Origin: Asterias amurensis
Taxonomy: Eukaryota > Echinodermata > Asteroidea > Forcipulatida > Asteriidae
Length of the DNA stretch: 64,000 nucleotides
Assembly (NCBI RefSeq): GCF_032118995.1
Contig: NC_092667.1
Location: 1,728,931 to 1,792,930, forward strand
Direction of reading: 5' to 3'
Below are positions 31,481-62,534 of this stretch, piece by piece (positions within the stretch are counted from its first letter, which is position 1; each line of letters opens with the position of its first letter). The notes beneath the pieces were generated by a model that saw nothing but the letters and a program-made list of their open reading frames with translations, was not told the origin of the DNA and searched no databases. The translations under genes and the position numbers were made by a program.

Positions 31481-32170
31481 CTAAGACGCAAGCACTTGTA
31501 GCATCTTGTAGCATGTGTCTCGCCACTGGCTCCAAGTAGGAGGGCACCCCAAAGTGGGTGTCCCTCCGGTAGGTGTTCCACCGGTAGGTGTCCCTCCGGT
31601 AGGTGTCCCTCCGGTAGGTGTCCCTCCGGTAGGTGTCCCTCCGGTAGGTGTCCCTCCGGTAGGTGTCCCTCCGGTAGGTGTCCCTCCGGTAGGTGTCCCT
31701 CCGGTAGGTGTCCCTCCGATAGGCGTCCCACTGGTAGGCGTCCCTCGGGTAGGGGTCCCTCCGGTAGGTGTCCCTCCGGTAGGGGTCCCTCCGGTAGGTG
31801 TCCCTCCGGTAGGTGTCCCTCCGATAGGCGTCCCACTGGTAGGCGTCCCTCCGGTAGGTGTCCCTCCGGTAGGTGTCCCTCCGGTAGGGGTCCCTCCGGT
31901 AGGTGTCCCTCTGGTAGGGGTCCCTCCGGTAGGTGTCCCTCCGGTAGGTGTCCCTCCGATAGGCGTCCCACTGGTAGGCGTCCCTCGGGTAGGGGTCCTA
32001 CTGGTAGGCGTCCCTCCGGTAGGGGTCCCTCCGGTAGGCGTCCCTCCGGTAGGGGTCCCTCCGGTAGGGGTCCCTCCGGTAGGTGTCCCTCCGGTAACGT
32101 CAGTGTAGTTTGCCATCATAACTATACCAAAAACACCCAGCAATTTGCTCGCCAACATAGTGCAGACCAT
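31481..32170 (-). pseudogene. C-type lectin copy with about 36 stalk repeats, lectin domain lost
   Basis: ATG at 32170 opens the family leader (MVCTMLASKLLGVFGIVMM). The RCWKK segment is missing, and about 36 TPTGG-type units run straight on. The sequence re-enters the lectin start (CPPTWSQWRDTCYKM) and then ends after LQVLAS at a stop; the rest of exon 1 and all of exon 2 are absent. Blocks with TPTRG-TPTSG-TPIGG recur inside the array 7 and 9 units apart, so the array grew by multi-unit copying. It could still yield a secreted repeat peptide, but it cannot be a lectin. Confidence 0.75.
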
Positions 32171-33051
32171 CTCTTGACAAATTGAAATTGCTGTCAAATT
32201 GCGCCGAGATCCTTAACTGCCAGTAAAAACACAACTCGTCGAGTCACACAAAAGACACGGTGCAACGCGAATTGATTATGAATTTGGGTCATGCATAATG
32301 GCGCAGTATTAAAAACCTTGCAATCAAACAGCCCTACGCTATAAGACAAATGGACCGTGAAATCTTTTGTTATGCCTAGCGTGGCTTCCTGTTGGAAGGC
32401 TTGGTTTTTAACAAAATCTCTTAATTGTTTGTCCAACTAGAGCAACTAATAAGATATGGTTCAGAAAGTCACGTTCACAAAGAGTATAATGGGAGACTTT
32501 TTGAAAGCTCTGCCACTAGAGGGCAGCAGACCTACCAGGTAAGGTACACAACTCCTATTAGCAAACAATGGTAAATGCTAAAAATTAAAAAGTACTCAAA
32601 AAATATTTAGAAGTCTCTCAGCCTCTTGAAAATTAAATCAGATACATTGTCATACAACTAAACTTCAGATTTCTTCTCAATTTTTGGTAGGTCAGCATTT
32701 TGGAATTTTTGCTAATTACTCTAGAAGAAACACTCCCAGAAACTCATGCACACCGCTTGTTATCCATGGAGAACTCGTGTCCAGTACGTCCTGTTCCAGA
32801 ACAGTTCGGTTTATGCTGGCAATGTGTTATGAAAAACAAAATACAGTTTGGCTAAATCTAAATACAAAATAAAAAACACGCAAAACACAAGGTATTTGCT
32901 GTCAGTGACCGTCACTCATGCTTCTCCTATTCCTAAGTTGTTGACATTACCTGGTGAAGAGCGCCCTCTCTTGGTGATTGGCAGATAGTCTAAAGTTCCC
33001 CATTGGCTTACTTTCTCACTGACACTGTTCATTTACACTATCACAGTGTTA
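32171..33051. other. Upstream flank of the 31.5-kb lectin copy
   Basis: 32175-32300 repeats the leader-upstream block seen at other lectin copies (CGCCGAGATCCTTAA, CACAACTCGTCGAGTCAC, CATGCATAAT). The remainder is AT-rich and unremarkable. Confidence 0.5.
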
Positions 33052-33756
33052 CTCGTTTAGATTTTGCCAACCAAATAGCTTTTTTATGGTGTCGTAGTAT
33101 AGACAAACATTCAAATTTACATAATGCTGTGTTCAAACAGGTGTGTTCGGTGTAGACATTATCCAACTTATCTGAGCTGATGAAGGAAAGTAAAAAATAT
33201 AAGTTGGTTAGTATGCCTTTCGGTAGGAAATATTATTTGATGTATGTGAAGTCAATTTTTTTCTAAAGAGTTGCATTTGTTGAGAAAAAGGTTCAATTAA
33301 ACCTTATTTGAAAACAGCATGACCTCATAGCTCATTTGTTATCAGCAAAATAATGTCATAAAACTTGAGGGGGCGCTGTTGTAGACAATTACGTCATTTC
33401 AATTCTTTTTTCAATTTCAATAAGTTCCAATTCCAAACCCCTTTTGTTAAAATCATTATGTGCCAACTTCTGGAAGTAAAGGTTATGGTCACGCACATCA
33501 GATTTGCAAAATATTTCGTGACGTCATCTTACACAAAGATGGAGTAAGCTTTGTTAAATTTATTTTGAGCGCTTACTTCAAAGTAAATTACCGAATTTTG
33601 GAAGGGTCGGGATGGGTTGTTAGGGTTACTTGTAATGGGGACAGGTTGTTTAATTAAAGGATTGATTTGTGAAGGTCGGGGATGGTTAGATTCGGTCGTG
33701 AAGGGTCATGGTTGGCTAGAAATACTATTGAAGGACCATGCAGAATTGGGGTGAGT

Positions 33757-34143
33757 TTAAAGGCAGTGGACACTATTGGTAATTACTCAAAACAATTATT
33801 AGCATAAAACCCAACTTGGTAACGAGTAATGGGGAGATGTTGAAAGTATAAAACATTGTGAGACACGGCTCCCTCTGAAGTGAAGTAGTTTTCGAGAAAG
33901 AAGTAATTTTCAACGAATTTGATTTCGAGACCCCAGATTTAGAATTTGAGGTCCCGAAATCAAGCATCTGAAAGCACACAACTTCGTGTGACAATGGTGT
34001 TTTTTTCATTCATTATTATCTCGCAACTTCGACGACCAATTGAGCTCAAATTTACTCAGGTTTGTTATTTTGTGCATATGTGGAGATACACCAAGTGAGA
34101 AGACTGGTCTTTGACAATTACCAATAGTGTCCACTGTCTTTAA
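33757..34143 (-). mobile_element. TTAA palindromic MITE, family 1, with an empty allele in the paralogue
   Basis: The filled site is GTGAG-TTTAA-element-TTTAA-CATGAG; copy B has the empty GTGAGTTTAACATGAG (ttaa 42782-42785). This proves the element limits and a TTAA target duplication. Confidence 0.95.
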
Positions 34144-35543
34144 CATGAGTCTATTAAGAACTGTTGAGTAAAACATGGTTTTGTGCGTAATGTATTTTAT
34201 TCTTACTTTGCTGTGCAGTGAAAGAACTTTTAAACACGAACATCATGAACCCTATCAGGACTGGGCGTCACTTTTTGGCCCGTATTTTTTAACGCTGCAT
34301 TCGATCGCACAATTTCTTTGTCGTCTCCCAAATATTAATATTGGATCATTATTTGTAAACAAAAGTCTTGCTTTCGGTGTCAGTTGTTACCATACGAACC
34401 GTTTGTTCGATCTTGGGTCATCAAACGATTTAAAAAAAAAATTAGTTGTTGTTTTTCCGCTTGTTTTTTTATTTATTTTTTTATTTTTTACACATTTTTC
34501 CTGTAAAAATGGTTTTGCTGTGCCACGTAAAAGTGTTAAATGCAGTTTTCGTTTTAAAAATGGAGTATCAAAATCGGCTATTATCTTGTATTTTTTTCAG
34601 CCCGTATTTGGAGGTTCAAACTACATACCACAGTTTTTATCACCGATTTGTTCAAGGTCAATGTTTCAAGTTATAATGTAAAGCGTGGTTTAAAAAAAGG
34701 CATGATATTAAAGCCACCCCCCCCCCCTCCCACGTGAGTCCCCAAAAGCATTTTCCTGATAGGGTTAATGTTAGATCGACACATATTATTACATCAATTA
34801 AAGATATACACTTTTTAATTAAATAATGTTAGTTTGACGGATACACAAGTTAAAGTTGTCTTTTCATGAAAACTTGTGAGAGCCGGTTGGTTTATCCAAT
34901 GTAGTGTGCTCTAAAGTAGTCGTTATAGGAGACAGTGACATCGACGAGAGTACAGTTGTCGAAATGTTTAGACTAAACCAACTGGCTTTTCCAGGGCCAT
35001 CATAATTTTGTTTAAATCGTGTAACCATAGGTAAAACAAAAATTCATGTGTTAAGATTCAAATTTCACATATTCAACGAAGTTCACATAATTATTTGAAA
35101 AACATCTAGAATATCTGAACTTACAATTTAAGTGTTTTTAGTTCATAATGAATCAAAGAAGCAATTTAGTTACAATGCAAAATCGTTCGACAAACTTCGT
35201 TTATGAGCAATTACCAAAATTTGAGGAGTTCCTGACCCAGGGTTTTATTCTCTACAACAAAGAAATAATCTTTGATTTAGTGATTTGTTTTCTTATGTTG
35301 GGTATCTGCCTGATCATTCTACATGAATATATGTTATTAGTTCTGTTTTGGGACCAAACAGGGGATTTTCTAAGACTTACCTCTAAGACTTACCCTATTG
35401 TTAGCGTGAAGTAGTGTTTTGCCTAATAAGTTTTAAAAGTTAATAATGCTTCAGTTTTCCAACTTAGTGAATGTTAATAATTAAATTAAACAGTAAACCG
35501 GTTAATACTACATATACTGATACAAGAACAATGCCAAAAGCAA

Positions 35544-35770
35544 TATTCATAAATACCCCAGACAGTTTCGCTATTGCTATTGGTGGAGAGCGCGTCACTC
35601 GGGGTGTTTAAACCTTTGATAATGACCAGTGTTTATAACCGGTTGTGATCGGATACTCCGCGCTAGTCTTGGTGCGAGACGTTTCTTGTTACGGGCGATG
35701 CGGGTGCTGTCGGTGAACTGTTGTAAATGCAAAACCTGCAAATCTTATCGAAGGAGGTCTGTTTCAGTAA
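35544..35770. mobile_element. ATTCATAAATACC foldback element, left part
   Basis: It matches the first 200 bp or so of 46493-47209 (GACAGTTTCGCTATT, GCGCTAGTCTTGGTG, GACGTTTCTTGTTACGGGCG). It replaces different sequence in copy B (44190-44300). Confidence 0.75.
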
Positions 35771-36913
35771 ACGGCGTACAGGGAATCCAAGGACTTTTTT
35801 TTTTTTGCAATACAGGGTTTTTAAAGATGGCAGCCTCAAAAAAGGGTTTCCTTAAAAGATTTGTAGAACAGTTTGCAAAACCTTTACATAGACAGAATTT
35901 TAAGGTTCCAAAAACGACTTTAATATCTTTAAACAAATATATATTGCTGCTCTGTTTCAGGAAAAAGGAAAATAGGGTCATGTTTTATACTGAAAACTTG
36001 ATTATAAGAGGGCTGACATTAACGGTGACGTCACTAATGGTGGCAGTGCTGAACATGGAGTGCGTTTGGCGATCCCAACCAAAAACTGTTTCGGTTGTTG
36101 GTCGTTGGTTCTGCTGTTCAGACTGAAGGACAACCGAGTTGTGAGCTCGGTTACCGTTTTGGTTGTGACGTCAGAAACAGTTTTTGGTTGGGGTCGCCAA
36201 AACGCACTCCTATACTAACATAAATGCATTCTTGGTGAACCATTTTCGAAACATTGACGTTATATTAGTTGTTTCACACAATCATGAAACTATAATACTA
36301 TGACAAAAATAATGAACTTTATTATTGCGTGTTAGTTGTTACGGGCCTTGTGAACAAGCATGTAAATTAAGAGGTATTATGACCAGAAATAATTTTTATA
36401 GTAAACGATTTCCATGCAAGTATTTTTCCATTCTCAGTTGAGATAAAGACAGAGAGAGGCTGGGACAGATAAATTGAATTTAATTTAGTTCGATTAAAAT
36501 ATCAAGATGGATGACTCCATGCATGCAACATTTGTCTTTTTACTAATGAGCCCAATATTCAAAGTAAATAGTGACTTGGTGGTAAAAAAAGATTATCACA
36601 AAGCGAATGCGCAGTTAATCACCTACCCCTTTAATCCTTATAAGAAGTAGTTAGCTTAGAATATTGAGCAACCTTTGTTGCTTTTTATTAGCAATGTGTT
36701 CAAGAGCCCAGTTGTTTTTTTTTTTTTTTTTTTTTTCAAAAGTTCTTATTATGCCTCTATTTCAGTATTTGTTACTTGGACTTGAAAGAAAAAAGTGTCC
36801 TGGGAGGGCACATCGCTTTGATGACAGTTTTTAAAACTTTTGCCTTACCCTGGACGGCCCCTGCCAACAAAGAATTATAATGTCCGAAGATTTAAAATAA
36901 ATATTGTGTTGGT

Positions 36914-39168
36914 TTACGCAGGGCGCTGACAGATGAATTTAAAGTAACCATCACATCCAAAATCGAGCCAGCCTGAACCAACACCTAAAGCGCAATCTTC
37001 ATTGCCGTTACTATTTGGCTCACCAGCAGCCCATCTCTCGTCCTGTTTGTCAATAGTACCTCCACCAAAACACACCCAGGTACCTGAACAAAGTCAATCA
37101 GAAACAAATATTCTCTTATAAACTGCTCACAAAAAGTAAGGAAACCTTTTTCAATCCAGTATATTTGTTGTTATTTAATACTCTCTTTGTATATGGTATA
37201 TATCAATGCAAAGCTGAACCGTTCCTCTTTAAAATGATACCACATTTGCAATGATTACATGTTGCTGGACTTGGCAACACGAATAACAATTAGGCAAAGT
37301 CACAAATCAAATGTGCCAAAATTACCGTTGTCTGTGAATGGTCAATAGGTAATGCTCAATAATCAAACCGATCAAGCTTTTCAGAACCATTAGTGGTTTA
37401 CATCATGATTTGCACCAGTGAGCTCATCGGACACAATTAACCCTCATCTCATGAAAAACACCTTGTTTGATGGGTATTTGCAAAACGATATTCTACAGCC
37501 GAATGCAGTCCCATACTTGCAGACTCTTGAACCAAATGCCATCTTTCAAGATGACAACGCTCGCCCCCATCGAGCCCGACTGGTGACTGACTACCTGAAA
37601 AATGTTGGGGTGGACCGGATGGATTGGCCTGCTACAGTCCATCCAGACCTGAATACCCCATGGAACATCTGTGGGACCAGCTTGGCCTCACTGTCCGCGC
37701 CAGAACCACCAACACATCAACTGTGGCTGACCTAACCAGGTTCCTTAATGAAGAATGGAATGCCATCCCTCATCATCAGTGCATCACAAGACTTACAAGT
37801 GTGCAGCATGAGAAGAAGGTGCCAGGCTGTCATCAAGGCCTTCGGATCATCCACTTGTTACTGAACTTTTTGTATCAATAAAGTATATTATGATCAGTAA
37901 GTTGTCTTGCTCTATACCAAACTTCTTGTCTCAATAAAGTGGATTAAGATCAGTAAGTTGTCTTGCTTGCTTGAATTACAGTGTCAATTTGATTGTTCAC
38001 ACAGTAACACAAAATTGCTAATTTTTGATTTGTGACTTTGTCGCATTCTCATTAACGTGGTCAAGTCCAGCAACATGTTATCATTGCAACTGTGGTATCA
38101 TCTTAAAGAGGAACAGTTCAGCTTTGCATTGATATTATTCCATATACAAAGAGAGTATTAAATAATAACATTAATATTGGATTGAAAAAAGTTTCCTTAC
38201 TTTTTGTGAGCAGTTTACATACAATCTTTTGAGCGGGATTGTACCTTAGTCACCTAGAAATATAATTTTTTTTTTTTTCAAACATAAGAGTATATGTTTA
38301 ATAACAATAAAACAATTGTTTTTTATAGTAGTTGTTTGTAACGATTTATAATGTTTAAAGAATAGATAAAGTTGTTTGGGGTTGATTCCGCCTACCCCTT
38401 TTGTGACGTCAATCGAGGCAGACTTTGCCTTGATGCGTAATGTAAACACACGTGCAAAGTACATGCAAATCACAGTCGTGAGATTGTACGTTTTAAAAAA
38501 AGTTTGTTTATTGCATGAAGCATGATGTTGCATAATGTGGGGCGCACCCGACTATAAATTGAAAGTAAAGCGAATGTCTCATGATATCAGCTCTCAAAAA
38601 ATTCTGTATACTACGCAGATTTGAGAGCCGAAAAAGGGGTGAAGTCAAAATAAAATTCAGAATGTTGTTGACTTCCAACTTCAAAAGGCATAAAATAAAA
38701 CTATTGATGGGCTATATTGAAAGCAATTTCTGTGCACAAACCTTCAGTGACGATGTCGGTGCACCCAATCCAGAACGATTGACCATTGAACATGTTGAGG
38801 ATGTGTTGTAACTCTTCTTTGGATTGAGGGACAACCATCACCCCACCCATCTCTACACAAATCTGCTTGCCCTCCTCCCATGCAACAGCGTTATCATGCA
38901 TCTTGTAGCATTGGTCTTGCCACTGGCTCCAAGTAGGGGGGCATGGCGGTGTCCCTCCGGTAGGTGTCCCTCCGGTAGGTGCCCCTCCGGTAGGTGTCCC
39001 GCCGGTAGGTGTCCCTCCGGTAGGTGTCCCTCCGGTAGGTGTCCCTCCGGTAGGTGCCCCTCCAATAGGGGCCTTCTTCCAACACCGCCCATTTACAGCA
39101 GCGTAGTCTGCCATCAAAAAAATACCAACAACACCCAGCAGTTTGCTCGCCAACATTTTGCAGACCAT
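36914..39168 (-). CDS. Secreted C-type lectin with TPTGG stalk, EPN type, 2 exons, complete
   Basis: Exon 1 39168-38742, exon 2 37083-36914; phase-1 intron; 198 aa. Residues 1-27 are a signal peptide (MVCKMLASKLLGVVGIFLM), then RCWKK and about 8 pentapeptide units (34-74). A C-type lectin domain starts at C76 (CPPTWSQWQDQCYKM) and holds FWIGCTD, TWVC, E164-P165-N166, NEDC, WLDFGC and ICQR. EPN is the tripeptide that favours mannose-type sugars in calcium-dependent lectins; the WND motif is WLD here. The Thr/Pro stalk would suit O-glycosylation. The 1.66-kb intron contains a whole Tc1-like element. Predicted role: secreted recognition protein, possibly immune; this is inference. Confidence 0.85.
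37121..38215 (+). mobile_element. Tc1/mariner-like DNA transposon, decayed, in a lectin intron
   Basis: It is flanked by TA (37119-37120 and 38216-38217), with inverted ends AACTGCTCACAAAAAGTAAG and about 150-bp terminal repeats. The transposase C-terminal part is visible: NAIFQDDNARPHRARLVTDY (second catalytic Asp) and, after a frame change at the DLN-P-MEHLWDQLG segment, the Glu-containing motif. The N-terminal DNA-binding part and first Asp are absent. It is not autonomous. Confidence 0.92.
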
Positions 39169-39476: not shown

Positions 39477-39845
39477 TTAAAGGGAAGGTACACGTTTGGT
39501 AATTACTCAAAACTTTAGAAACTGACTTGGTAACGAGCATTGGAGAGCTGTTGAAAGTATAAAACATTGTGAAAAACGTCTCCCTCTGAAATAGCATAGA
39601 TTTTGAGAAAGAGGTAATTTCTCACTAAAATAATAAAAGACTTCTAGCTGGAAGTATTTTATTCCTATCTGAAGGCACACAAATTCTTCCAACAAGGGTG
39701 TTTTTTTTATTTCATCATTTTCTCCCAACTCCGATGACCAATTGAGCTCAAATTTTCACAGGTTTGTTATTTTATGCATATATTGAGATACCACAAGTGA
39801 GAACATTGGTTTTTGACAATTACCAATAGTGTACCTTCCCTTTAA
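39477..39845 (-). mobile_element. TTAA palindromic MITE, family 1 variant (AGGGAAGGTACACG ends)
   Basis: TTAA at both ends; termini AGGGAAGGTACACGTTTGG and GTGTACCTTCCC. The body matches family 1. A left-end piece of the same variant lies at 44683-44745. Confidence 0.85.
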
Positions 39846-39879
39846 AGGTCGCTTGAAACGTAAAATGTTAATTAGTTTG

Positions 39880-40031
39880 CTAGATCGAGGTGTCCCTCCG
39901 GTAGGTGTCCCTCCGGCAGGTGTCCCTCCGGTGGGGGCCTTCAAACACCGCCCGTTTACGGCAGTGTAGTTTGCCATCATAACTATACCAAAAACACCCA
40001 GCAGTTTGCTCGCCAACATTTTGCAGACCAT
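39880..40031 (-). pseudogene. C-type lectin copy, leader plus three repeats only
   Basis: ATG at 40031 opens MVCKMLASKLLGVFGIVMM...NGRCLKAP and about three TPTGG-type units, then unrelated sequence. The upstream flank (40032-40200) is the conserved lectin block, including CAACCTTCACAGAACGG. Confidence 0.8.
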
Positions 40032-42617: not shown

Positions 42618-45043
42618 CGTAAATTACCGGATTTTGGAAGGGTCGGGATGGGTTGTTAGGGTGATCGGACAGGCTGTTTTTAAAGATTAATTTGTGAGGG
42701 TCGGCGATGGTTAGATTTGGTCGTAAAAGGCCACGGTTGGCTAGAAATAATATTGAAGGACCAAGCAGAATTGGGGTGAGTTTAACATGAGTCGTTTAAG
42801 AACTGTTGAGTAAAACATGGTTTTGTGCATAATGTATTTTATTATTACTTTGCTGTGCAGTGAAAGAACTTTTAAACAAGATCATCATTAACCATATCAG
42901 GACTGGGCGTCATTTTTTGGCCCGTATCTTTTAACGCTGCATTCGATCGCACAATTTCTTTGTCGTCTCCCAAATATTAATATTGGATCATAATTTGTAA
43001 ACAAAAGTCTTGCTTTCGGTGTCAGTTGTTACCATACGAACCGTTTGTTCGATCTTGGGTCATCAAACGATTTAAAAAAAAAATGTAGTTGTTGTTTTTC
43101 CGCTTGTTTTATTTTTTTTAATTTCTTTTCTACACATTTTTCCTGTAAAAATGGTTTTGCTGTGCCACGTAAAAGTGTTAAATGCAGTTTGCGTTTTAAA
43201 AATGGAGTATCAAAATCGGTTATTATCTTGTATTTTTTTCAGCCTGATTTAGAGGTTCAAGCTATATACCACAGTTTTTATCACCGACTAGTTCAAGGTA
43301 AATGTTTGAAGTCATAATGTAAAAAAAGGAGCATCATATTAAAGCCACGCCCCCGCCCACTTGAGTCGCCAAAAGCATTTTCCTGATAGGGTTAATGTTA
43401 GATCGACACATATTATTACATCAATTAAAGATATACACTTTTAATAAAGTAATGTTAGTTTGACGGATACCCAATTAAAGTTGTCTCTTCGTGAACACTA
43501 ATTGAGGTGATGTCTCTGTGAGAGTCGGTTGGTTTATTCAATGTAGTGTGCTCTGAAGTAGTCGTTATAAGAGACGTGACAACGACGAGAGTACAGTTGT
43601 CGAAATGTTGAGACTAAACCAACTGGCTTTTCCAGGGCCATCATAATTTTGTTTAAATCGTGTAACCATAGGTAAAACAAAAATTCATGTGTTAAGATTC
43701 AAATTTTACATATTCAACGAAGTTCACATAATTATTTGAAAAACATCTAGAATATCTGAACTTACAATTTAAGTGTTTTTAGTTCATAATGAATCAAAGA
43801 AGCAATTTAGTTACAATGCGAAATCGTTCGTCAAAACTTCGTTTATGAGCAATTACCAAAATTTGAGGAGTTCCTGACCCAGGGTTTTATTCTCTACAAC
43901 AAAGAAATAATCTTTGATTTTAGTGATTTGTTTTCTTCTTATGTTGGGTATCTGCCTGATCATTCTACATGAATATATGTTATTAGTTCTGTTTTGGGAC
44001 CAAACAGGGGATTTTCTAAGACTTACCTTTAAGACTTACCCTATTGTTAGCGTGAAGTAGTGTTTTGCCTAATAAGTTTTTAAAGTTAATAATGCTTCAG
44101 TTTTCCAACTTAGTGAATGTTAATAATTAAATTAAACAGTAAACCGGTTAATACTACATATACTGATACAATAACAATGCCAAAACAATATTTAAAATTT
44201 CACTTTGCGAATAACTCTCAAACAATAAAATGAATATTATTTATCCTGAAGCTAATTTACAATTTTTTAAAGCTATGAAAACTTGTTTGCAACAATCAGT
44301 TTTTAAAGATGACAGCCTCAGAAAAGAGTTTCCTTAAAAGATTTGTAGAATTTTTTGCAAATTCTTCACATAGAAAGAATTGTAAGGTTCAAAAAACGAC
44401 TTTAATATCTTTAAAAAAAAATATGTTGCTACTCTGTTTCAGGAAAAAGGAAAACAGGGTCATGTTCCATACTGAAAACTTGATCATAAGAGGGATCACT
44501 AAAGGGATCACTAATGGTGTCAGTGCTGAGCATGTACTAACACAAATGCATTCTTTGTGAACCATTTTCGAAACATTGACGTTATATTAATTGTATGAAA
44601 CTATATTATGACCAAAATAATGAGAATGAACTTCATTTCTGCGTGTTAGTTGTTGCGGGCACTGTGTGAACAATAATATTAATTAAAGGACAGGTACACG
44701 TTTGGTAATTACTCAAAACAAATGTTTACTAAAAAATTGACTTTACATTGTATAATATTTTGAAAAAACCTTCACATAGAAAGACTTGAGAGGTTCCCAA
44801 AACGACTTTATTACCATTTTTTTTTATCGGAGAGAGAGAGACAAAGAAAATGAACTTCAAATAGTCTGGTTAGAATATCAAGATAGGTATACCGTGCAGC
44901 AAGTTGTCTCTTTACCAATTAGCACATATAGTGGCTTAGTGTTTTACAAAAGATTATCATAAAGCAAATTAGCAGTTCAACACCTACCCCTTTAATCTTT
45001 ATAAGAAGTATATGATAGTTAGCTCAGAACATTGAGCAACTTT

Positions 45044-45850
45044 TCACATGAGCTGCTGTGCTGGTGATGCGTGGCGCTGACAGATTGACTTGCTGGTACG
45101 ATCACACTGCCAATCGAACCAGCCTGAACCAACACCGACAGCGCAATCTTCGTTGTTGGAATTATTTGGCTCACTATCAGACCACATTTCGTCCTGCACG
45201 TCAAAAATTTCACCGTCCAAACACACCCAGGTACCTGAACAAGGAAACCCCAAGTAAAAAGTCTTATTGCATCAAATGTTAGGAGTGGGATCGTACTTAA
45301 ACAGCCAATAAAGGATGATCTCAATATTTCAACAATTTTGTCACTAAATAAAAGGAATTATTTGGACTACGTTAAACACAATTTATAGAATAATTTTGTA
45401 CAAACCTTCAGTTTGAATGTCGTTGCAACCAATCCAGAACCATGGCCACGCTTGGCAGCTGCACATGTTGATGATGTGTTGTAACTCTTCTTCGGATTGG
45501 GGGACAACCATCATCCCACCCAACTCAACACAAATCTGCTTGCCCTCTTCCCATGTAACGACGACATCATGCATCTTGTAGCATTTGTCTTGCCACTGGC
45601 TCCAAGAAGGAGGGCATTCCCAATTAGGTGTCCCTCCGGTAGGTGTCCCTCCGGTAGGTGTCCCTCCGGTAGGTGTCCCTCCGGTAGGTGTCCCGTCGGT
45701 AGGTGTCCCTCCGGTAGGTGTCCCCCCGGTAGGTGTCCCGTCGGTAGGTGTCCCTCCGGCGGGGGCCTTCTTCCAACACCGCCCATTTACAGCAGCGTAG
45801 TCTGCCATCAAAAAAATACCAACAACACCCAGCAGTTTGCTCGCCAACAT
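45044..45850 (-). CDS. Secreted C-type lectin with TPTGG stalk, EPN type, 2 exons, complete
   Basis: Exon 1 45850-45406, exon 2 45234-45044; 171-bp phase-1 intron; 211 aa. The usual first Met is changed (MVCKMLAS reads IVCKMLAS), so the start is the second Met, which leaves a good signal peptide. Stalk residues 29-75 hold about 9 units, two with Asp (TPTDG). The lectin domain runs 79-202: C79, C90, C107, C142, C153, C179, C192 and C200 give the long-form disulphide pattern. Two extra Cys at 130 and 132 (MCSCQ) are not in the sister copies. E170-P171-N172 predicts mannose-type binding; WFDWQC replaces WND. It is the paralogue of 36914-39168 by segmental duplication. Confidence 0.87.
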
Positions 45851-45959
45851 TTTGCAGACAATCTCTTGACAAATTAAAATTCTGCCAGGTATAAAACCAA
45901 TAAGGTGGGGTGAAAAAAAGAACAGCGCAACGGGGAGTTCTCCAGGAACAGCGATAAAT

Positions 45960-48449: not shown

Positions 48450-48552
48450 TCCGGTACATGTAGGTGTCCCACCGGTAGGTGTCCCTCCGGTAGGTGTCCC
48501 TCCGGTAGGTGTCCCTCCGGTAGGTGTCCCTCCGGTAGGTGTCCCTCCTATA
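48450..48552 (-). repeat. Orphan lectin-stalk minisatellite, about 7 units
   Basis: TCCCTCCGGTAGGTG units match the lectin stalk arrays but no leader or lectin domain flanks them. A G-run (48433-48447) lies on the left. Confidence 0.85.
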
Positions 48553-49356: not shown

Positions 49357-50554
49357 TCACATGAGCTGCTGTGCTGGTGATGCGTGGCGCTGACAGATTG
49401 ACTTGCTGGTACGATCACAATACCAATCGAACCAGCCTGAACCAACACCGATAGCGCAATCTTCGTTGATGTAATTATTTGGCTCACTATCACACCACAT
49501 CTCGTCCTGCACGTCAAAACCTTCACCATCCAAGCACACCCAGGTACCTGAACAAGGAAATCCAAAGTATTATAGGCTACATCAAATTTTAGGTGTGGGA
49601 TCGTACTAAAAGACACTGGACACTATTGGTAATTGTCAAAGACTAGTCTTCTCAATTGGTGTATCTCTACACTACGCATAAAATAATAAACCTGTGAAAA
49701 TTTGAGCTCAATTGGTCGTCGAAGTAAGTAATATTTTCAGGGAAGCATTCTATCATCATAATCTTCAAACTGTGTAAGTTTAAAGTAAATCTGTGGACAA
49801 TGTGTTTTTTGTCCGACAAAAAGTACCCAGACACTTTAAACATAATTTCTCAACCATCACCCCACCCAACTCAACGCAAATCTGCTTGCCCTCTTCCCAT
49901 GCAACGTCGGCATCATGCACCTTGTAGCATTTTTCTTGCCACTGGCTCCAAGAAGGAGGGCACTCCCAAGTAGGTGTCCCTCCGGTGGGTGTCCCTCCGG
50001 TAGGTGTGCCTCCGGTAGGTGTCCCTCCGGTAGCTGTCCCTCCGGTAGGTGTCCCTCCGGTAGGTGTCCCTCCGGTAGCTGTCCCTCCGGTAGGTGTCCC
50101 TCCGGTAGCTGTCCCTCCGGTAGGTGCCCCTCCGGTAGGTGTCCCTCCGGTAGCTGTCCCTCCGGTAGCTGTCCCTCCGGTAGGTGTCCCTCCGGTAGGT
50201 GTCCCTCCAGTAGCTGTCCCTCCGGTAGCTGTCCCTCCGGTAGGTGTCCCTCCGGTAGGTGTCCCTCTGGTAGGTGCCCCTCCGGTAGGTGTCCCTCCGG
50301 TAGGTGTCCCTCCGGTAGGCGTCCCTCCGGTAGGTGTCCCTCCGGTAGGTGTCCCTCCGGTAGGTGTCCTTCCGGTAGGTGCCCCTCCGGTAGGTGTCCC
50401 TCCGGTAGGTGTCCCTCCGGTAGGTGTCCCTCCGGTAGGTGTCCCTCCAGTAGGGGCCTTCTTCCAACACCGCCCGTTTACAGCAGCGTAGTTTGCCATA
50501 AAAAAAAATACCAACAACACCCAGCAGTTTGCTCGCAAACATTTTGCTGACCAT
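49357..50554 (-). pseudogene. C-type lectin copy with about 33 stalk units, broken
   Basis: Exon 2 (49547-49357) is intact and encodes TWVCLDGEGFDVQDEMWCDS, EPN, and ICQRHASPAQQLM. Exon 1 (from ATG 50554) has one extra base in the T-run of the signal peptide, so reading on from the ATG gives RRDTY repeats rather than TPTGG. Exon 1 also stops matching after GGVMV near 49850: the VPQS...WIGCND...TEG segment and donor are gone, replaced by repeat sequence at 49608-49850. Many units are TATGG instead of TPTGG. The T-run should be rechecked as a possible sequencing error, but the missing segment stands on its own. Confidence 0.85.
49608..49840 (+). mobile_element. Family 1 MITE fragment inside the broken lectin
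   Basis: AGACACTGGACACTATTGG runs through TTTGAGCTCAATTGGTCGTCG, then different sequence ending CCAGACACTTTAA. It begins where the paralogue at 45298 reads GTACTTAAAC, so a TTAA site was available. Confidence 0.65.
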
Positions 50555-52579: not shown

Positions 52580-52957
52580 TTAAAGACACTGGGCACCTTT
52601 GGGAATAGTCAAAGACCAATCTTCTCACTTGGTGTATCTCACTATTATGCATAAAATAACAAACCTGTGAAAATTTGAGCTCAACATTGGTCGTCGAAGT
52701 TGCGAGATAATAATGAAAGATAAAATACTCAACGAAAATGTGTGCTTTCAAATGCTTGATTTCGAGACCCCAAAATCTAGTTCTGAGGTGTCGATATCAA
52801 ATTCGTGGAAACTTACTTCTTTCTCTAAAACTATGCGTTAATTCAGAGGGAGCCGTTTCTCAAAATGTTTTATACTATCAACCGCTCCCCATTACTCGTT
52901 ACCAAGTAAGGTTTTATGCTAATAATTATTCTGAGTGATAGTGTCCACTGCCTTTAA
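52580..52957 (+). mobile_element. TTAA palindromic MITE, family 1
   Basis: It runs from TTAAAGACACTGGGCACCTT to GTGTCCACTGCC and TTAA. It shares the TTAA at 52954-52957 with the next copy. Confidence 0.85.
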
Positions 52958-53337
52958 AGGCAGTGGACACTATTGGTAATTACTTCAAATAATTTTTGGC
53001 ATAAAACCTTTCTTGGTGACAAGTAATGGGGAGTAAAGGTTGGTGGTATAAAACATTGTGAGATACAGCTCCCTCTGAAGTGCCATAGTTTTGGAGAAAG
53101 AAGTAATTTCCACGAATTTGATTTCGAGACCTCAAGTTTAGAACTTGAGGTCTCGAAATCAACCATCTAAACGCACACAACTTCGTGTGACAAAGGTGTT
53201 TTTTCTTTTATTATTATCTCGCTTGATGAGCGATTGAGCTCAAATGTTCACAGGTTTGTTATTTTATGCATATGTTGAGATACACCAACTGTGAAGGCTA
53301 GCCTTTGACAATTACCAATAGTGTCCACTGCCTTTAA
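52954..53337 (-). mobile_element. TTAA palindromic MITE, family 1, full length
   Basis: It runs from TTAAAGGCAGTGGACACTATT to GTGTCCACTGCC and TTAA at 53334-53337, with a clean GAGACCTCAAG hairpin at the centre. Confidence 0.9.
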
Positions 53338-54216: not shown

Positions 54217-56310
54217 ATGCATGTACATAAACACGGAAGATTCATATTTTGCCTTACGGTGCCTCAAGCGATGGCCCAGATAATTTTGCCAATCCTGCTA
54301 CCTGTACATGTTTACATCATCCAAGATGGCGGCAGGATTGACGTCAGTGCTTTGCGTCTATATTTTAAATTACAAGGCCTTGAAGACCAGGAAGTCGGTC
54401 AGTTTATGCTTTAAAAGCAACTATGGTGTCTCATTTAATTCATTATCCTCGATACCTCGCTCGAGACCTCGACACATGTAGGCATCGCAGCTCTAAAGCA
54501 AAAATTTTGCTATGAAGTCAGCGTACAACCCCAATCTAAAAATACATCTAAAGAAACCTCTATAACATACGAACTAACAAAAATAACCAAGGTGTAACCT
54601 TCACAGAACTGCATGTGCCAAGCTCCTTCCGTCGCCAATAAAAAAAACGCGCTGTGGAGTCAAACAAAGAACAGCGCAACAGGGAGTTCTCCAAAACAGC
54701 GATAAATCAATCAATAAAACCCATAAAAAAAAATGAAGAAAATATAATAAAACATAGAACTTGAAGACAAATGTTTTACATAATAGGCATAGGCTACGTG
54801 TTATGGTGTTGAGTTTGCATAATAAGCTGTGGCGTACACAATTGAGATGAGATGTAAATAAAGAATTCGGGGAAAATTATTACTAGCAACGACATTTCGC
54901 AAAGACTTGAACAAAACTCAGTGACAGAAAATAGGTAAAAAACTGAGTTCATCACACTGAAATTACTTTGTTTGTGTGTGATTAGTTTGTAAAGTTGTGT
55001 TATTCTTCCTCAAGAACCTGTACAAGTACATGTACACGGATGATACCGAATTGAACGAGACACCGGGGCCCAATTTCATAGAGCTGCTAAGCACATAAAT
55101 TTGCTTAGCATGAAATTTATTCATTGATAAAACTCAATTTACCAACCAAATTTCCATTTGTTGCCTGTTGCTTGTTGCTTGAATTCAGCTGTTGTTTGCT
55201 TATCATGAAAGTCACGTCATGTGGAAATAAATCTTGTATTTTATCAAGGAAGCAAAATGCATGTACATAAACACGGAAGATTCATATTTTGCCTTACGGT
55301 ACCTCAAGCGATGGCCCAGATAATTTTACCAATCCTGCTACCTGTACATGTTTACATCATCCAAGATGGCGGCAGGGTTGACGTCAGTGCTTTTTGCGTC
55401 TATATTTTTAATAACAAGGCCTTGAAGACCAGGAAGTCGGTCAGTTTATGCTTTGAAAGCAACTGTGGTGTCTCATTTAATTCATTATCCTCGAGACCTC
55501 GTTCGAGACCACGACACCATGTATAGGCATCGCAGCAAAACAGCAATATTTGCTATGAAGTCAGCGTACAACCCCAATCTAAAAATACAGCTAAAGAAAC
55601 CTCTATAACAATCCATACGAACTAACAAAAATAACCAAGGTGTAACCTTCACAGAACGGACTGTGCCAAGCTCCTTCCATCGCCAATAAAAACACGGGCT
55701 GTGGAGTCAAACAAAGAACAGCGCAACGGGGAGTTCTCCAAAACAGCGATAAATCAATCAATAAAACCCATAAAAAAAATGAAGAAAATATAATAAAAAA
55801 TAGAACTTGAAGACAAATTTGTACATAATAGGCATAGGCTACGTGTTATGGTGTTGAGTTTGCATAATAAGATGTGGCGTACACAATTGAGATGAGATGT
55901 AAATATAGAATTCGGGGAAAATTATTACTAGCAACGACATTTCGCAAAGACTTGAACAAAACTCAGTGACAGAAAATAGGTAAAAAACTGAGTTCATCAC
56001 ACTGATATTACTTTGTTTGTGTGTGATTAGTTTGTAAAGTTGTGTTATTCTTCCTCAAGAACCTGTACAAGTACATGTACACGGATGATACCGAATTGAA
56101 CGAGACACTGGGGCCCAATTGTATAGAGCTGCTAAGCACATAAATTTGCTTAGCATGAAATTTATTCCCTGATAAAACCCAATTTATCAACCAAATTTCC
56201 ATTTGTTGCCTGTTGCTTGTTGCTTGTATTCAGCTGTTGTTTTCTTATCCTGAAAGTCACGTCGCGTGGAAATTAATCTTGTGTTTTATCAAGGAAGCAA
56301 AATTTTATGC
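54217..56310. repeat. Tandem segmental duplication, two units of about 1.04 kb
   Basis: Unit 1 54217-55257 and unit 2 55258-56310 both start ATGCATGTACATAAACACGG. Each holds a lectin-upstream block (GTGTAACCTTCACAGAAC, AACAGCGCAAC) but no lectin gene, and ends in the GGGCCCAATTTCATAGAGC MITE. The junctions lie inside the MITE. Confidence 0.9.
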
Positions 56311-56340
56311 TTAGATTAGCAGCTCTATGAAATTGGGCCC
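56110..56340. mobile_element. Palindromic MITE with GGGCCCAATT ends
   Basis: Ends GGGGCCCAATTGTATAGAGC and GCTCTATGAAATTGGGCCC. The sister copy at 55065-55257 has lost its right end at the duplication junction. Confidence 0.8.
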
Positions 56341-57290: not shown

Positions 57291-57294
57291 GTTT

Positions 57295-57784
57295 GCGGTA
57301 ACACCATGTGTGTAACTACTTGCCAGGTAGAGTTTGTTCTTAGAGAACTGTCTTGCTATATTCTACTGCCGCGGAGTAGATAATCGGAGGTTCGGGAGAC
57401 TTATAAGTTCTGAAAAGAACTGTCCTGCTTTTTAACTATTACCCAGGGCGGATTGTATAGAAAATAGACTGGACTACTACTCAACGTTTCGACTAGCTTG
57501 CTCTAGTCATCGTCTCTAGAGCAAGCTAGTCGAAACGTTGAGAACAATTCAGAACTGACTCCGCGGCAGTACAGTTAATTACGATCCTATAAGCTATTTA
57601 AAGTAGTAGTCCAGTCTATTTTCTATACCATCGGCCCTGGTAATAGTTAAAAAGCAGGACAGTTCTTTTCAGAACTGAGAAGTCTCCGAACCTCCGATTT
57701 TCTACTCCGTGGCAGTAGAATATAGCAAGAGTTCTCTAAGAACAAACTCTACCTGGCAAGTAGATACACACATGGTGTTACCGC
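57295..57784. mobile_element. Foldback element, 490 bp, complete
   Basis: Ends GCGGTAACACCATGTGTGTA and TACACACATGGTGTTACCGC. The arms meet at GACTAGCTTGCTCTAG/CTAGAGCAAGCTAGTC. Half copies lie at 14220-14490, and short matches occur near 34950 and 43590. Confidence 0.88.
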
Positions 57785-58620
57785 GTTCTTATTATTAATA
57801 TTCTGGGTGCTCTCAAAGTCATGAATGCGCATGATGAAAGTTTTTATGACCGTATGCCATATCAATATCAATAGCTCAAATTTCCTTTGCACTATAGCTA
57901 CACTATTATACACAACCAAAACTTATCCCAGACTCTCAATATACATTCATGACGCTTGTATTGTATTGCCTTTTTGTTAAGTTAACAAAAATTAAAAAAC
58001 ATCTTTAAAAAATGCAATTTTCTGCTTATCAAGCATATCGAGAGGTCAAAAAACGTGTGATGTGCCAGAAAAACAACATTTTTTTTACTTCTCGTTATGC
58101 TCGATATTAGCAGAAAATTCCATTTTCTGAAGATGTTTTTTAGTTTAACTCAACAAAAAGGCAATACAAGCTTCATAAATGCATATTAAGTGTGTTGTGT
58201 AAGTTTTGGTTTTTCGAGTTTTGTGATGTCAATATTCGCTACGCATTCGCATTCGCAGGAAGTATGAACTAGGCTTTATGCTGACTTACCTGGTAATAGA
58301 CCTTTGCATAGAAGATGTCACAAGCCCAAAACAGCGCACTCATTGGCTCAGAGTTGTGTGCAGCACGCAAACAGGTGCCAGTTTCCATTTTTTGGACTCG
58401 GTGATGGAGGCAAATGCAAGGATAGGCAAATGCAAGGATAGGCAAAGTTATTAAGAAAGAGAAAATTCAAATCAATCTTGAAAAATTCAGTTCAAATTCA
58501 GTGTTTACTTTTTAAGAAAAAATTGTCACTGTGTTTTCTTTAAGAAAGCCGAATCCATCCATGTTGAGCAAGGTGACAGAATGACTACCTACCACATCTC
58601 TACTTTTTATTTTTCTCTAG
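57785..58620. other. No gene seen
   Basis: 57960-58160 has a weak inverted repeat (GTTAACAAAAATTAAAAAAC and ATTTTCTGAAGATG words). Two GGATAGGCAAA words at 58420-58445 form a short direct repeat. Confidence 0.35.
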
Positions 58621-58764
58621 ATATCGTAATACAACTTTGAGAATGAGAAGTCTAATCAGTCTCCATTCTGAGCTAGAAGGACTCATCAAAATTAACCTAG
58701 CTGAGCAGCTTCAGAAAGCTCTTAAAGATAGATCATCAAGACGTCAAAGAAGTATCAGGCAAAG
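58621..58764 (+). CDS. Orphan internal coding exon of an unrecognised gene
   Basis: It lies between a good acceptor (TTTTTATTTTTCTCTAG) and donor (CAAAG|GTAAGA), 144 nt, open in one frame: YRNTTLRMRSLISLHSELEG, then LIKINLAEQLQKALKDRSSR. The first base completes a codon and the last two begin one. The peptide looks like a basic amphipathic helix region with an Arg/Ser-rich end. I do not recognise it, and no partner exon was found, so its gene would have to span the lectin cluster or extend right. It is the only plus-strand exon candidate in the lectin region. Confidence 0.4.
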
Positions 58765-58968
58765 GTAAGAAAATAATATGAGTTGACATGCCAAAAGCAT
58801 GAGTGGAATACAGAAACACAGTCTGCTTTTTTGAAGAACCACTTGTTTGACTGCACAGAAATGTATATGCAAACTATTGTTACATTATACATCATAGGTG
58901 TTTTTGTGGGTGAACCACTCTTCAAAATGGATTAGGAGCAGATTCCAAACAGCAACATTTTGAGAGAT

Positions 58969-59364
58969 TTAAAGGCAGTGGACACTATTGGTAATTACTC
59001 AAAATAACTATAGCATAAAACCTTACTTGGTGACGAGTAATGGGGAGAGGTTGGAAGTATAAATTGTTGTGAAAAACAGCTCCCTCTGATGAAGTGACAT
59101 ACATGTAGTTTTTGGGAAAGAATTAATTTTCCACGAATTTGATTTCGAGACCTCGGTTTTAGAATTTGAGGTCTCGAAAGCAAGCATGTGTGAAAGCACA
59201 CAACTTCGTGTGACAAGGGTGTTTTTTATTTCATTAATATCTCGTAACTTCAACGACCATTAGAGCTCAAAATTTCACAGGTTTGTTATTTTATGCATAT
59301 GTGTAGATATGCCAAGTGAGAAGACTGGTCTTTGACAATTACCAATAGTGTCCAGTGTCTTTAA
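58969..59364 (-). mobile_element. TTAA palindromic MITE, family 1, in a duplicated lectin 3' flank
   Basis: It runs from TTAAAGGCAGTGGACACTATT to GTGTCCAGTGTC and TTAA. The 70 bp left of it (GGGTGAACCACTCTTCAAAA to GAGAGATTTAAAGGCA) recur at 59500-59570. Confidence 0.88.
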
Positions 59365-59621
59365 AATGAGAGTCTATGATTCGCATTAAAAGTCCTTGAA
59401 CTGTGTGTTTGTGTAATGTCATGAAAGAACACAGTCCACTTTTTGTAAGTTTCCAGAGGCAAACTTATGTTACATTTATAATACATCATTGATGTGGGTG
59501 AACCACTCTTCAAAATGGATTAGGAGCAAATTCCAAACAGCAACATTTTGAGAGATTTAAAGGCAAAGTGTCGCTTTTATTTTCATAAAAAGTAGTTTGG
59601 CCAGAATTTTGAGCAACCTTT

Positions 59622-60712
59622 TCACAGAGGCAACAGTGCTGGTAATACGGGACGCTGACAGATTAACTTGCGTGTGGTTCCACAAACGTCATCGTTCCAG
59701 CCTGTAGCCCAGCCTTCGGCGCAATCTTCGTTGCTGTTATTATCTGGCTGACCACCCACCCATCTCTTGTCCTGCGTGTCAATAGTGCCTTCACCATCCA
59801 GACAAACCCAAGTACCTGAACAAAGACAAGCAGGAATACAAACTTCGTCTCATTACAACAAATAATGGTGTTTCTGATCAGCAGAGTGTGGGTTCAAATC
59901 CCCAGCCGTGACACTTGTGTCCTTAAGCAAGACACTTAACCATTGCTTGGTCGTTCGGATGGGACGTAAAGCCATTGGTCCCATGTATATGTGTAACGCA
60001 TGTAAAAGAACCCAGTGCACTTGTTGAAAAGAGAAGGGGTTCGCCCCGGTGTTCCTGGCTGTGGCTGCTAAATGCGCCGTAGCACCTTGTAAAAAACCCT
60101 TATAAGGTGCTACAAAATTGGGTCTCAAAACTCATAACTTTCAATTACCTCTCTTTCTGTATAAATGATACATTAAGCGCCTTTAGTACCTTGTTGGTAG
60201 ATACGTACGCTATATAAAACTTCGATATTATTATTATTATTATTCTAATGAGAGCGGGATCGTTCGTATGAAAAGTACCTCAACAGATATTTCTTCTTTT
60301 TGAGACTTGTTCTTATTTTCCTTGTAGCTCTCACCCTTGGTGGCAATTTGTCATAAAACAAAACAAATTATCAGGACTATATCTTGAACATCATTTCTAG
60401 AATTGTTTACGAACCTTCAGTTTGAATGTCATTGCAACCAATCCAGAACCATTGGCCACTGGTCATGTTGACGAGGTGTTGAAACTCTTCTTTGGATTGA
60501 GGTACAACCATCACCCCATCCAACTCAACACAAATCTGCTTGCCCTCTTCCCATGTAACGACGGCATCACGCATCTTGTAGCATTTGTCTTGCCACTGGC
60601 TCCAAGTAGGAGGGCATGGCTTCCAACACCGCCCCTTTACAGCAGCGTAGTTTGCCATCAAAAATATACCAACAACGCCCAGCAGTTTGTTCGCCAACAT
60701 TTTGCAGACCAT
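59622..60712 (-). CDS. Secreted C-type lectin without stalk, QPD type, 2 exons, complete
   Basis: Exon 1 60712-60415, exon 2 59815-59622; phase-1 intron; 163 aa. Signal peptide 1-27 (MVCKMLANKLLGVVGIFLM), then RCWKPCPPTW: the pentapeptide stalk is entirely absent. The lectin domain (33-154) has W36, WIGCND, TWVC, Q122-P123-D124 and W139-N140-D141, ending ICQRPVLPALLPL. QPD is the galactose-favouring tripeptide and WND a calcium ligand motif, so this copy has the most canonical calcium site in the cluster. The intron carries a 5'-truncated tRNA SINE. Function is predicted from family knowledge only. Confidence 0.88.
59866..60245 (+). mobile_element. tRNA-Leu-derived SINE, 5'-truncated, in a lectin intron
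   Basis: It begins inside the head (TGGTGTTTCTGATCAGCAGA), keeps the B box (GGTTCAAATCCCC) and ends in (ATT)n at 60228-60243. Confidence 0.85.
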
Positions 60713-60765
60713 CTCTTGACAAAATGAAATTGCTGCCAGATATAAGCAAGGAGGTGCACACTTCA
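60713..60765 (-). promoter_or_regulatory. Conserved leader upstream of the QPD lectin
   Basis: Minus strand: CTTATATCTGGCAG|CAATTTCATTTTGTCAAGAG then ATGG. Same block as at the other lectin starts; TATA-like core or 5' UTR-intron acceptor. Confidence 0.45.
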
Positions 60766-62340
60766 CTGAACACAGAACCGTGCCAAGATCCTTAATAATC
60801 AAGAAGATCACCCTTCACAGAATTGAGCTTCAACCAGATTAATTTCAGATTGCCAATTTGCCTTTATTGCCAATAAAAACACAACTCATCCAGTCACAAA
60901 AAAGCTCAGAGTTGTCCAATAACTATCTTCAATCAATCAATCGATAAAAAAACTATAATAACATGTAAAAAAATATAATCAGAACTCGAAGGAAAACAAA
61001 CTAGACCTAATGAAATTTTGAGTTGTGCATAATGAGCAGTGGCATGGTAAGAAATGTTGATGAGCAAAAAATAAAAAAAATAAAAGAGATTTTTACTTGC
61101 AAAATGTTTCACAAAGACTTTCACAATACCATTCCACCCTACACACTCCCTACTACCCTTAAACCAGAGATTGATTTAACCAAATGTTACAAATATCTTT
61201 TGAAAAGTGTTTCTATCTATAAAGTCATGAAATTCCTTTTCAATAATTCTTTTTTAAGATGGCGGCCAGTAAATAGTCTTTCCCAAAAAGATAATTACAA
61301 ATATTTGCAAAACCTTCACATAATCAGTGCGCATTCAAAGTAGACTTTTGCATAATATAGACGATGTGACCTGTGACATCACATGTTTACAAAAGAGCCA
61401 CAGAGCCTGGACTTCCCGCAGGCAGGATTTGTACCCAGCCTAATGGAAGAAATCATAAAATTATATATTTTATGGAGATTGCACTGTCTAATTCTCGTCA
61501 ACTTTTGATATGATGAAAGGGGGAACATCTCAAAACTCGCACAGCATTTACTTTCACAATTCTTGAATTTATGTGGAAATTATGACACAAAATGTCAACT
61601 TTCCCATATGACCTGTGCAGTGTTGTGCCTGCCAGAATACTCAAAGAATATACATGGTCACACAATTGTAAACACAAGTTCACATGGTCTATATTTTTTT
61701 TCATTTAAAAGCTAAAGTTATTTTTTCAGACAATATGAAACTATTATAGAGCCAGAATTTCAAAAATGTTAATAATGATAAGTTAACTTGCCAACTGCTC
61801 TGCTATTTAATAATTAGCAACTTTTCAAAGTATAATATACATACGTTGCTTGGTGTTTTAGAAAAGATTACCATAAAGGAAATGAGCATTTAACCACTTA
61901 AATTTGCAATTGCCTTCGGATTGGCCGCTTTGGGCTATAGAAAGTGTGCACTAAACAAAAAAGTGTGGGCTTTAAAAACGTTATGTTATGAAAAGAATAT
62001 TGTAGGTAAGATATTTCACAAGATGAATTACTGATTCACATAAAAAAATCCCCTGAAATTGTGTTTCTGGGTGTAATTTTATGACAAAACACAGTCCGCC
62101 ATTTTATAGAACCAAATTTTGGACTCCTTAAAAAACACCTATGTGACTCTGCTGGTTTACATATTTATAAAATAACATTTTAATTTAGTCAAATAACACA
62201 TTATTACGTGTTTAAAGTGCATGAACAAAAATCTTTAAAAAGGATAAGAAGCAATTCTAAATGGCAAGATTTCAAGAGATCTTAAGGCAATGTACCCGAA
62301 TAATCTTCATTAAAGGTAGTTTGGCCAGATATTGAGCAAT
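60766..62340. other. Lectin intergenic region, no gene seen
   Basis: 60766-61080 is the lectin-upstream block (AAAACACAACTCATCCAGTC, GTTGTGCATAATGAGCAGTG). 62260-62340 is a lectin 3' flank homologous to 59520-59620 (GGTAGTTTGGCCAGA, TTGAGCAA). The middle is AT-rich. Confidence 0.45.
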
Positions 62341-62352
62341 CTTTCACAGGAG

Positions 62353-62534
62353 CTACAGTGCTCGTACTGGACGCTGACAGATTAACTTGCGTGTGCTTCC
62401 ACAAACCCCATCGTGCCAACCTGAATCATTGCTTGCAGCGCAGTCTTGGTCCCCTTTGTAATCATATGGCTGACCATCCTGCCATCTCTTGTCCTGCACG
62501 TCAATAGTACCTTCACCCAAACACACCCAGGTAC
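62353..62534 (-). CDS. C-type lectin exon 2 (QPY type); exon 1 not seen
   Basis: An acceptor (TTGTTTCAG) is followed by 60 codons in phase with the family: TWVCLGEGTIDVQDKRWQDG, Q-P-Y where sisters have QPD or EPN, then DCAASNDSGWHDGVC and ICQRPVRAL plus stop. The Y in the sugar-selecting tripeptide and WHD for WND suggest altered or lost calcium-dependent sugar binding. Exon 1 should lie further right on the minus strand; none is visible up to 64000, so it is probably beyond the window. Confidence 0.8.

Follow-up and report, generated by a model that had tools for sequence, protein, structure and literature searches.

Small two-exon C-type lectin genes with an in-frame TPTGG stalk of variable length in the starfish Asterias amurensis

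Introduction

Why should related lectin genes that lie side by side carry, between their leader and their sugar-binding head, a coding repeat that is missing from some copies and runs to dozens of units in others? This question is raised by a stretch of 64,000 nucleotides from the starfish Asterias amurensis (C20:1728931-1792930 in a genome of 491,506,623 bases and 23 contigs; hereafter the window), the minus strand of which contains, between positions 31481 and 62534, a C-type lectin cluster that includes a 15-bp repeat. An initial annotation, made from the letters of the window, had drawn attention to this cluster. With a probability of about 0.6, we read it as part of a family of repeatedly duplicated, small two-exon C-type lectins that possess a coding TPTGG stalk, a first exon homogenised by conversion and diverse heads, and in which stalk length is mostly tolerated.

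Gene Structure and Copies within the Window

The first exon of these genes contributes a hydrophobic leader, a GRCW segment containing a single cysteine, the TPTGG stalk and the front half of the lectin domain; the other half, with the sugar and calcium motifs, comes from exon 2. Only three copies are complete within the window, namely B, D and G, with 8, 9 and 0 units, respectively (Table 1). In each of them, the exons are separated by a phase-1 intron after TE|G, just as had been predicted, with GT as the donor, CAG as the acceptor and an exon 1 whose length modulo 3 equals 1; the introns measure 1658 bp (B), 171 bp (D) and 599 bp (G). The initial annotation had further counted at least eight copies sharing leader, stalk and split domain. 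Eight loci of the window indeed have at least one part of the family, but only B, D and G have all their parts inside the window. The leader, likewise claimed as shared, is recognisable in six window copies with small differences among them. The unusual first codon of copy D is probably harmless, because a methionine is present at positions 4-6 in all 43 leaders surveyed; the first methionine is present in 35 of them (the leader, motif and tree counts leave out L040, a duplicate of window copy G, and L056, a duplicate of L031a).

Several other copies are incomplete or disrupted. No exon 2 was found for copy A, in which the GRCWK segment behind the leader is absent as well. A dispersed repeat begins about 30-40 bp behind the units of copy C, and neither leader nor lectin domain was found beside the array of copy E. 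The leader of copy F has a +1 frameshift located in a T run, and its exon 1 contains a replaced internal stretch that consists partly of the dispersed repeat. Stalks of about 36 and about 33 units had been claimed for the cluster; the arrays themselves are real, but no whole lectin head lies behind either of these two longest arrays of the window (A, about 36 units; F, about 32 units).

Table 1. Coordinates of the lectin copies and of associated repeats. Positions refer to the window unless a contig or locus is named.
Feature	Position	Strand	Description
Copy A	31481..32170	-	leader, ~36-unit array (31557-32096), domain cut after CYKM, stop; headless
Copy B, exon 1	38742..39168	-	leader, 8 units, first half of lectin domain; open
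Copy B, exon 2	36914..37083	-	EPN and WLD motifs; stop
Copy C	39888..40031	-	leader and 3 units, no lectin domain after; broken
Copy D, exon 1	45406..45862	-	9 units, open; first codon ATT, next in-frame Met at position 5
Copy D, exon 2	45044..45234	-	EPN and WFD motifs; stop
Copy E	48460..48548	-	orphan array, 5-6 units (5.9 by Tandem Repeats Finder)
Copy F, exon 1	49852..50554	-	leader, 32 units, domain broken after GGVMV
Copy F, exon 2	49357..49547	-	open; EPN and WFD motifs
Copy G, exon 1	60415..60712	-	leader directly abutting lectin domain, 0 units; open
Copy G, exon 2	59622..59815	-	QPD and WND motifs; stop
Copy H, exon 2	62353..62534	-	QPY and WHD motifs
Copy H, exon 1 (L047)	C20:1794317-1794616		0 units; ~1.4 kb past the right edge of the window
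L060 and L061	C20:1634688-1634987 and C20:1673543-1673842		identical exon-1 and exon-2 rows
L031b array	L031 4401-5084 = C1:9776500-9777183		~29 units in another frame (TYRRD)
Tandem duplication	54217..56303		1.05 kb, 94.6%; the 5' flank of copy D is included twice
Dispersed repeat family	33756-34143, 39477-39846, 49609-49725, 52580-53337, 58968-59377, 62589-62839
Duplicated 1.4-kb segments	34139-35547 and 42781-44192		93% identity; downstream of copies B and D

The Lectin Domain

The Pfam profile PF00059 (Lectin_C) matches the spliced B, D and G over its positions 3-107 of 107, with scores of 56.8, 42.2 and 55.6 bits at a curated cut-off of 22.6 and E values from 4.2e-15 to 1.5e-10; these whole-profile matches bear out the proposed assignment to the C-type lectins. 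The best relatives of known structure are the heads of DC-SIGNR and DC-SIGN (E values of 1.4e-23 for G and 7.8e-21 for D). Compared with these, the leucine of the WxGL motif and the second tryptophan of the TWxW motif are both replaced by cysteine in the starfish family. TWxC is present in 35 of 36 second exons, and a cysteine ends the WIG motif in 42 of 43 exon-1 rows (counted by eye), the exception being copy F, which is without that stretch. One could guess that an extra disulphide might bridge the exon junction.

The EPN triplet represents the mannose type and QPD the galactose type of sugar-binding site. Seven kinds of triplet occur among 35 second exons (the stop-bearing exon 2 at the edge of L031 is excluded from the motif counts and from the exon-2 tree): EPN in 11 and QPD in 10 of them, hence one of the two in 21, and other triplets in 14 (QPN in 8, EPD in 3, and EPS, QPR and QPY in one each). 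The asparagine of the WND motif is a calcium ligand in classical C-type lectin heads; at this position, the same 35 exons read WDD in 11 cases, WHD in 9, WND in 8, WFD in 4, and WLD, WKD and LHD in one case each, as counted by eye.

The Repeat Unit and Its Arrays

The unit of the stalk comprises 15 bp with the consensus ACACCTACCGGAGGG, which, when read codon by codon, encodes TPTGG. Tandem Repeats Finder reports 36.0 copies for A, 7.7 for B, 3.0 for C, 9.0 for D and 32.3 for F, in agreement with the unit numbers first given, and adds the array of E (5.9 copies), which had not been listed; all of these arrays have 0% indels. Among the arrays at large, the exceptions are two rows of L037 (3% and 26%). 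It had been argued that changes in unit number leave the reading frame intact, and the arrays are indeed nearly free of indels; however, any 15-bp unit preserves the frame, and this particular one is open in five of its six frames, with only 1 of 45 single changes creating a stop in the TPTGG frame.

Two exact units in tandem occur at 88 positions of the genome, which form 13 arrays, 12 of them on C20 and the other on C1; a reversed control pattern has no occurrence in the genome. Since 12 of these 13 arrays reside within copies that have a lectin leader or domain, the exception being copy E, the TPTGG unit is not a general dispersed satellite. This search overlooks arrays without two exact units, as was the case for copy C and for L069, an array with 17 of 18 units identical that was found at the protein level. 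Twelve of 13 arrays with at least five units share one consensus, which points to a recent common source or to an exchange of units. A search of the prokaryote collection gave no occurrence of two exact units in tandem. The deviating L031b array on C1 is open from a shortened leader into the first half-domain, because both of its junctions are shifted; no exon 2 was found behind it. A block of five identical units recurs in array A, but higher-order structure was not significant in a lag test, neither for A (308 of 5000 shuffles as high) nor for F (1049 of 5000).

Stalk Length in Open Genes

Of 43 exon-1 rows, 24 are without a TPTGG unit and five contain a single one; the remaining 14, among which L037 and L070 with their irregular stalks are counted, contain at least two. 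Another short spacer takes the place of the stalk in five of the 24 rows without a unit (L052, L058, L059, L065 and L066). An open exon 1, splice borders and an open exon 2 are found together in stalked copies with 8 (B), 9 (D and L032), 12 (L036), 32 (L034), 38 (L033) and 72 units (L035). Further whole genes have one unit (L045) or none (G and others), and both exons are also present in L037 (first copy) and L070 with their long irregular Thr/Ser/Pro/Gly stalks. Hence, an in-frame repeat between the N-terminal segment and the head varies between 0, 8 and 9 units in the window and takes values of 9, 12, 32, 38 and 72 in open copies elsewhere. The pattern within the window, where A and F are broken and B, D and G are short or without a stalk, had suggested that long arrays persist in decayed copies only; this notion is overturned by the open genes L033, L034 and L035.

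An open exon 1 without an exon 2 in the stretch read is present in L039 and L041 (one unit each), L042 (three) and L069 (18), and candidate second exons are listed downstream of L039, L042 and L069 among the exon-2 query matches. Elsewhere in the genome, the reading frame of L038 is lost between stalk and domain, and no domain was found behind the stalk of the second copy of L037.

The Family across the Genome

Relatives are numerous outside the window within the same genome. A query with exon 2 gave at least 76 matches at E <= 1e-5, with the best 150 of 218 candidates scored, and at E <= 1e-9, a cut of our own choosing, at least 57 head exons were counted by eye (37 on C20, nine on C1, eight on C11, and one each on C2, C4 and C13). 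This number includes broken copies such as F and rows with a stop, which is possibly the normal end of the gene. With 35 of the 37 listed C20 head exons, the family is concentrated at 0.89-2.08 Mb, a region of about 1.2 Mb, where it forms two blocks (0.89-1.23 and 1.63-2.07 Mb) separated by a gap of about 0.4 Mb without a listed match. The corresponding query with exon 1 yielded at least 155 matches at E <= 1e-5 (best 150 of 490 candidates scored), among them many more distant lectins. No relative was confirmed in viral contigs. The rapid evolution that had been proposed for the cluster is supported, as variation between paralogues, by the head motifs and the unit number.

The identity of L060 and L061 (Table 1) reflects either a recent duplication or a duplicate in the assembly. 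In seven loci (L048-L051 and L060-L062), a truncated second exon-2-like piece is located in the intron in front of the full exon 2. These pieces were considered as alternative heads, but they run into stops after 29 or 32 residues and are therefore taken as relics.

Among open-access papers, judged by titles and the beginnings of abstracts, none was about a TPTGG lectin family, and the string TPTGG has no occurrence in the 20 of 27 retrieved papers that were covered; the word 'lectin' does not occur in the main text of the two A. amurensis genome papers or of an A. rubens coelomocyte proteome paper.

Divergence of the Two Exons

The two exons differ in their rates of change. Among 33 copies having both (L061, whose rows are identical to those of L060, and copy F were left out), the mean synonymous divergence (pS) is 0.163 for exon 1 versus 0.326 for exon 2, and the mean nonsynonymous divergence (pN) is 0.134 and 0.234, respectively. 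Synonymous divergence is larger in exon 2 in 489 of 528 pairs, with a bootstrap interval of the difference of 0.130-0.196. Calculated as ratios of means, pN/pS amounts to 0.82 for exon 1 and 0.72 for exon 2, values that indicate weak constraint and no overall positive selection. Within the window, the greater divergence of exon 2 is apparent in the pairs B-G (Fisher p 0.007) and D-G (p 0.009). In a set of 25 copies, the differences amount to 0.42-0.50 for introns and 5' flanks, which are near unalignable, to 0.13-0.14 for leader and exon 1, and to 0.25 for exon 2. Gene conversion of exon 1 would be the simplest reading of its low divergence and fits these values.

Some observations weigh against our explanation of the family as duplicated lectins with a tolerated stalk and a conversion-homogenised exon 1. 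Several of the stalked copies are broken. The pair B-D, taken alone, exhibits no difference between the exons (p 0.42), and the low pS of exon 1 could stem from constraint on synonymous sites instead of conversion. Moreover, many heads may bind sugar weakly or differently, because the WND asparagine is retained in only 8 of 35 second exons.

Selection on the Stalk and Alternative Explanations

A serious contender, which we would place slightly below even odds, is that the stalk is a passenger: a minisatellite with a unit unlikely to create a stop or a frameshift grew in exon 1 and was tolerated with little function. This overlaps with the explanation that we favour, which leans the same way on length, and both could apply together. 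When units with fewer than 10 consensus bases out of 15 are set aside, the ratio of distinct unit changes at third positions to those at first and second positions is 34:51 for intact copies and 28:40 for the others (Fisher p = 1), and the overall count of 62:91 is not clearly different from the expected 15:29 (p 0.09-0.10). There is thus no clear evidence for selection on the stalk sequence, and with no stronger constraint in intact copies, the stalk may largely represent tolerated drift. The openness of the unit in most frames, the scarcity of single changes leading to a stop and the many exon-1 rows without any unit also speak for a passenger. It is opposed by the three genes in which 32-72 units stay in frame and are joined to an open head, which is weak evidence that the stalk is tolerated or useful, and by the lack of any stop in 329 counted units, although few would be expected. 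The arrays of the window alone lean to third-position changes (12:11, p 0.07).

A further point against a mere passenger is the clustered presence of stalks on the exon-2 tree (four changes versus a shuffled mean of 9.5, with none of 500 shuffles as low), from which it follows that stalks are retained over some period. In the tree of exon 1 (43 rows, without copy A; two units or more scored as a stalk, the irregular L037 and L070 included), the stalk label requires 11 changes (mean of 12.0 after shuffling, with 160 of 500 shuffles as low), and only 6 of 39 branches are well supported; the joint tree gives five changes versus a shuffled 8.7. Given the poor support of the exon-1 tree, repeated gain of stalks was not established, and a single origin could likewise account for their distribution. 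Stalks are more frequent with Glu-type (EPx) heads (8 of 11 stalked versus 7 of 24 unstalked second exons; Fisher p = 0.027), a link that we do not claim because only one independent pair lies on supported branches.

A bolder and, in our estimate, unlikely proposal is modular diversification, in which a conversion-prone exon 1 would hand leaders and stalks, whatever their length, from copy to copy, and exon 2 would retain its own diverging sugar-binding half.

It is distinctly unlikely that the proteins are type II membrane receptors in which an uncleaved N-terminal anchor would be followed by stalk and head. DC-SIGNR has an N-terminal anchor, a stalk and a C-terminal head; the order of anchor-like leader, stalk and C-terminal head is the same in the starfish family, and DC-SIGNR also provides the closest solved head. 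Against such receptors, the hydrophobic run is short, lies near the first methionine and is followed, as judged by eye, by a plausible cleavage site.

A role as matrix proteins of the mineral or of an adhesive is improbable. It is brought to mind by the spicule matrix proteins of sea urchins, which are likewise an expanded set of echinoderm C-type lectins with the domain joined to repetitive stretches. According to the excerpted text of PMC7351957, the repeats named for the spicule lectins are acidic, while TPTGG is uncharged, and C-type lectins are reported there to be absent from sea star skeletons. Finally, it is very improbable that the long arrays or frameshifts are assembly artefacts, even though the frameshift of copy F sits in a T run and the C run in front of the domain is one base shorter in L031b and L038, since the HiFi reads from fragments of about 15 kb with which the A. 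amurensis assembly was built (as described in an excerpt of PMC10625585) are long enough to span every array read, the longest of about 1.1 kb, and no homopolymer change accounts for the losses in A, C and F.

Comparison with Known Systems

The nearest analogue of the TPTGG lectins is CLEC4M (DC-SIGNR, L-SIGN) with its variable neck, likewise a C-type lectin with an in-frame coding tandem repeat beside the head. The human CLEC4M neck is helical and makes tetramers; the TPTGG stalk is not of this kind. In the excerpted text of PMC3261175, the CLEC4M neck is described as consisting of 69-bp units, present in 4-9 repeats at one human locus and polymorphic between people, whereas the starfish unit has 15 bp and varies from 0 to 72 repeats between paralogues of one assembly. 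Because of this different unit, we regard the starfish family as an analogue of CLEC4M and not as a member.

The SpTransformer (Sp185/333) proteins of sea urchins belong to a different protein family that is not known to possess a lectin domain. What their genes have in common with the starfish lectins is that they are small, clustered, repeat-bearing two-exon genes of an echinoderm, as far as the excerpts of PMC5103432 and PMC5491942 describe them.

Surrounding Repeats and Neighbouring Genes

The dispersed repeat family listed in Table 1 has copies that lie next to, or directly at, the points where lectin copies C and F are broken. No recognisable exon 1 is contained in the tandem duplication at 54217..56303. 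The intron of copy B contains inverted repeats of 194 bp with 88.7% identity (window 37119-38217); the sequence between them looks like the relic of a Tc1-type transposase, and a Pfam search with two open frames in this intron gave no match. The cluster is adjoined by an open frame for an MFS transporter on the minus strand (window 26785-28065; Pfam MFS_1, 4.4e-31). Window positions 1054-1766 and 15644-16433 contain a 79-bp tandem repeat in nine copies and several GTT runs of 26-44 copies inside a larger repeat.

Biological Implications

We suggest the following picture for the duplicated lectins with a tolerated stalk. The protein would be secreted, or possibly held by a type II anchor, and the cysteine of the GRCW segment may link subunits. 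The stalk would act as a flexible spacer that keeps the head off its base and is, given its Thr-Pro content, probably O-glycosylated. In coelomic fluid or mucus, the various heads may bind different glycans, microbial or self. An immune role, like the secretion and the glycosylation, is no more than plausible, and the same applies to the recognition system initially proposed. Stalk length would change through unequal exchange or slippage within the array, exon 1 would be homogenised between copies by gene conversion, and the resulting lengths would be mostly tolerated and not tuned.

Variation in lectin neck length is best known from a single polymorphic human locus. The starfish genome presents related heads on 0, 1, 8, 9, 12, 32, 38 and 72 units with a common unit and known exon boundaries, so that effects of length on reach, valency and evolution become testable with natural parts. 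The small genes of this family combine two rates of change, a homogeneous exon 1 and a diverging exon 2, and can be regarded as a natural experiment in which spacer length was varied separately from the binding site. If modular diversification were true, stalk length and specificity would be reshuffled independently over more than 50 secreted lectins, and each starfish would have its own combination of reach and specificity.

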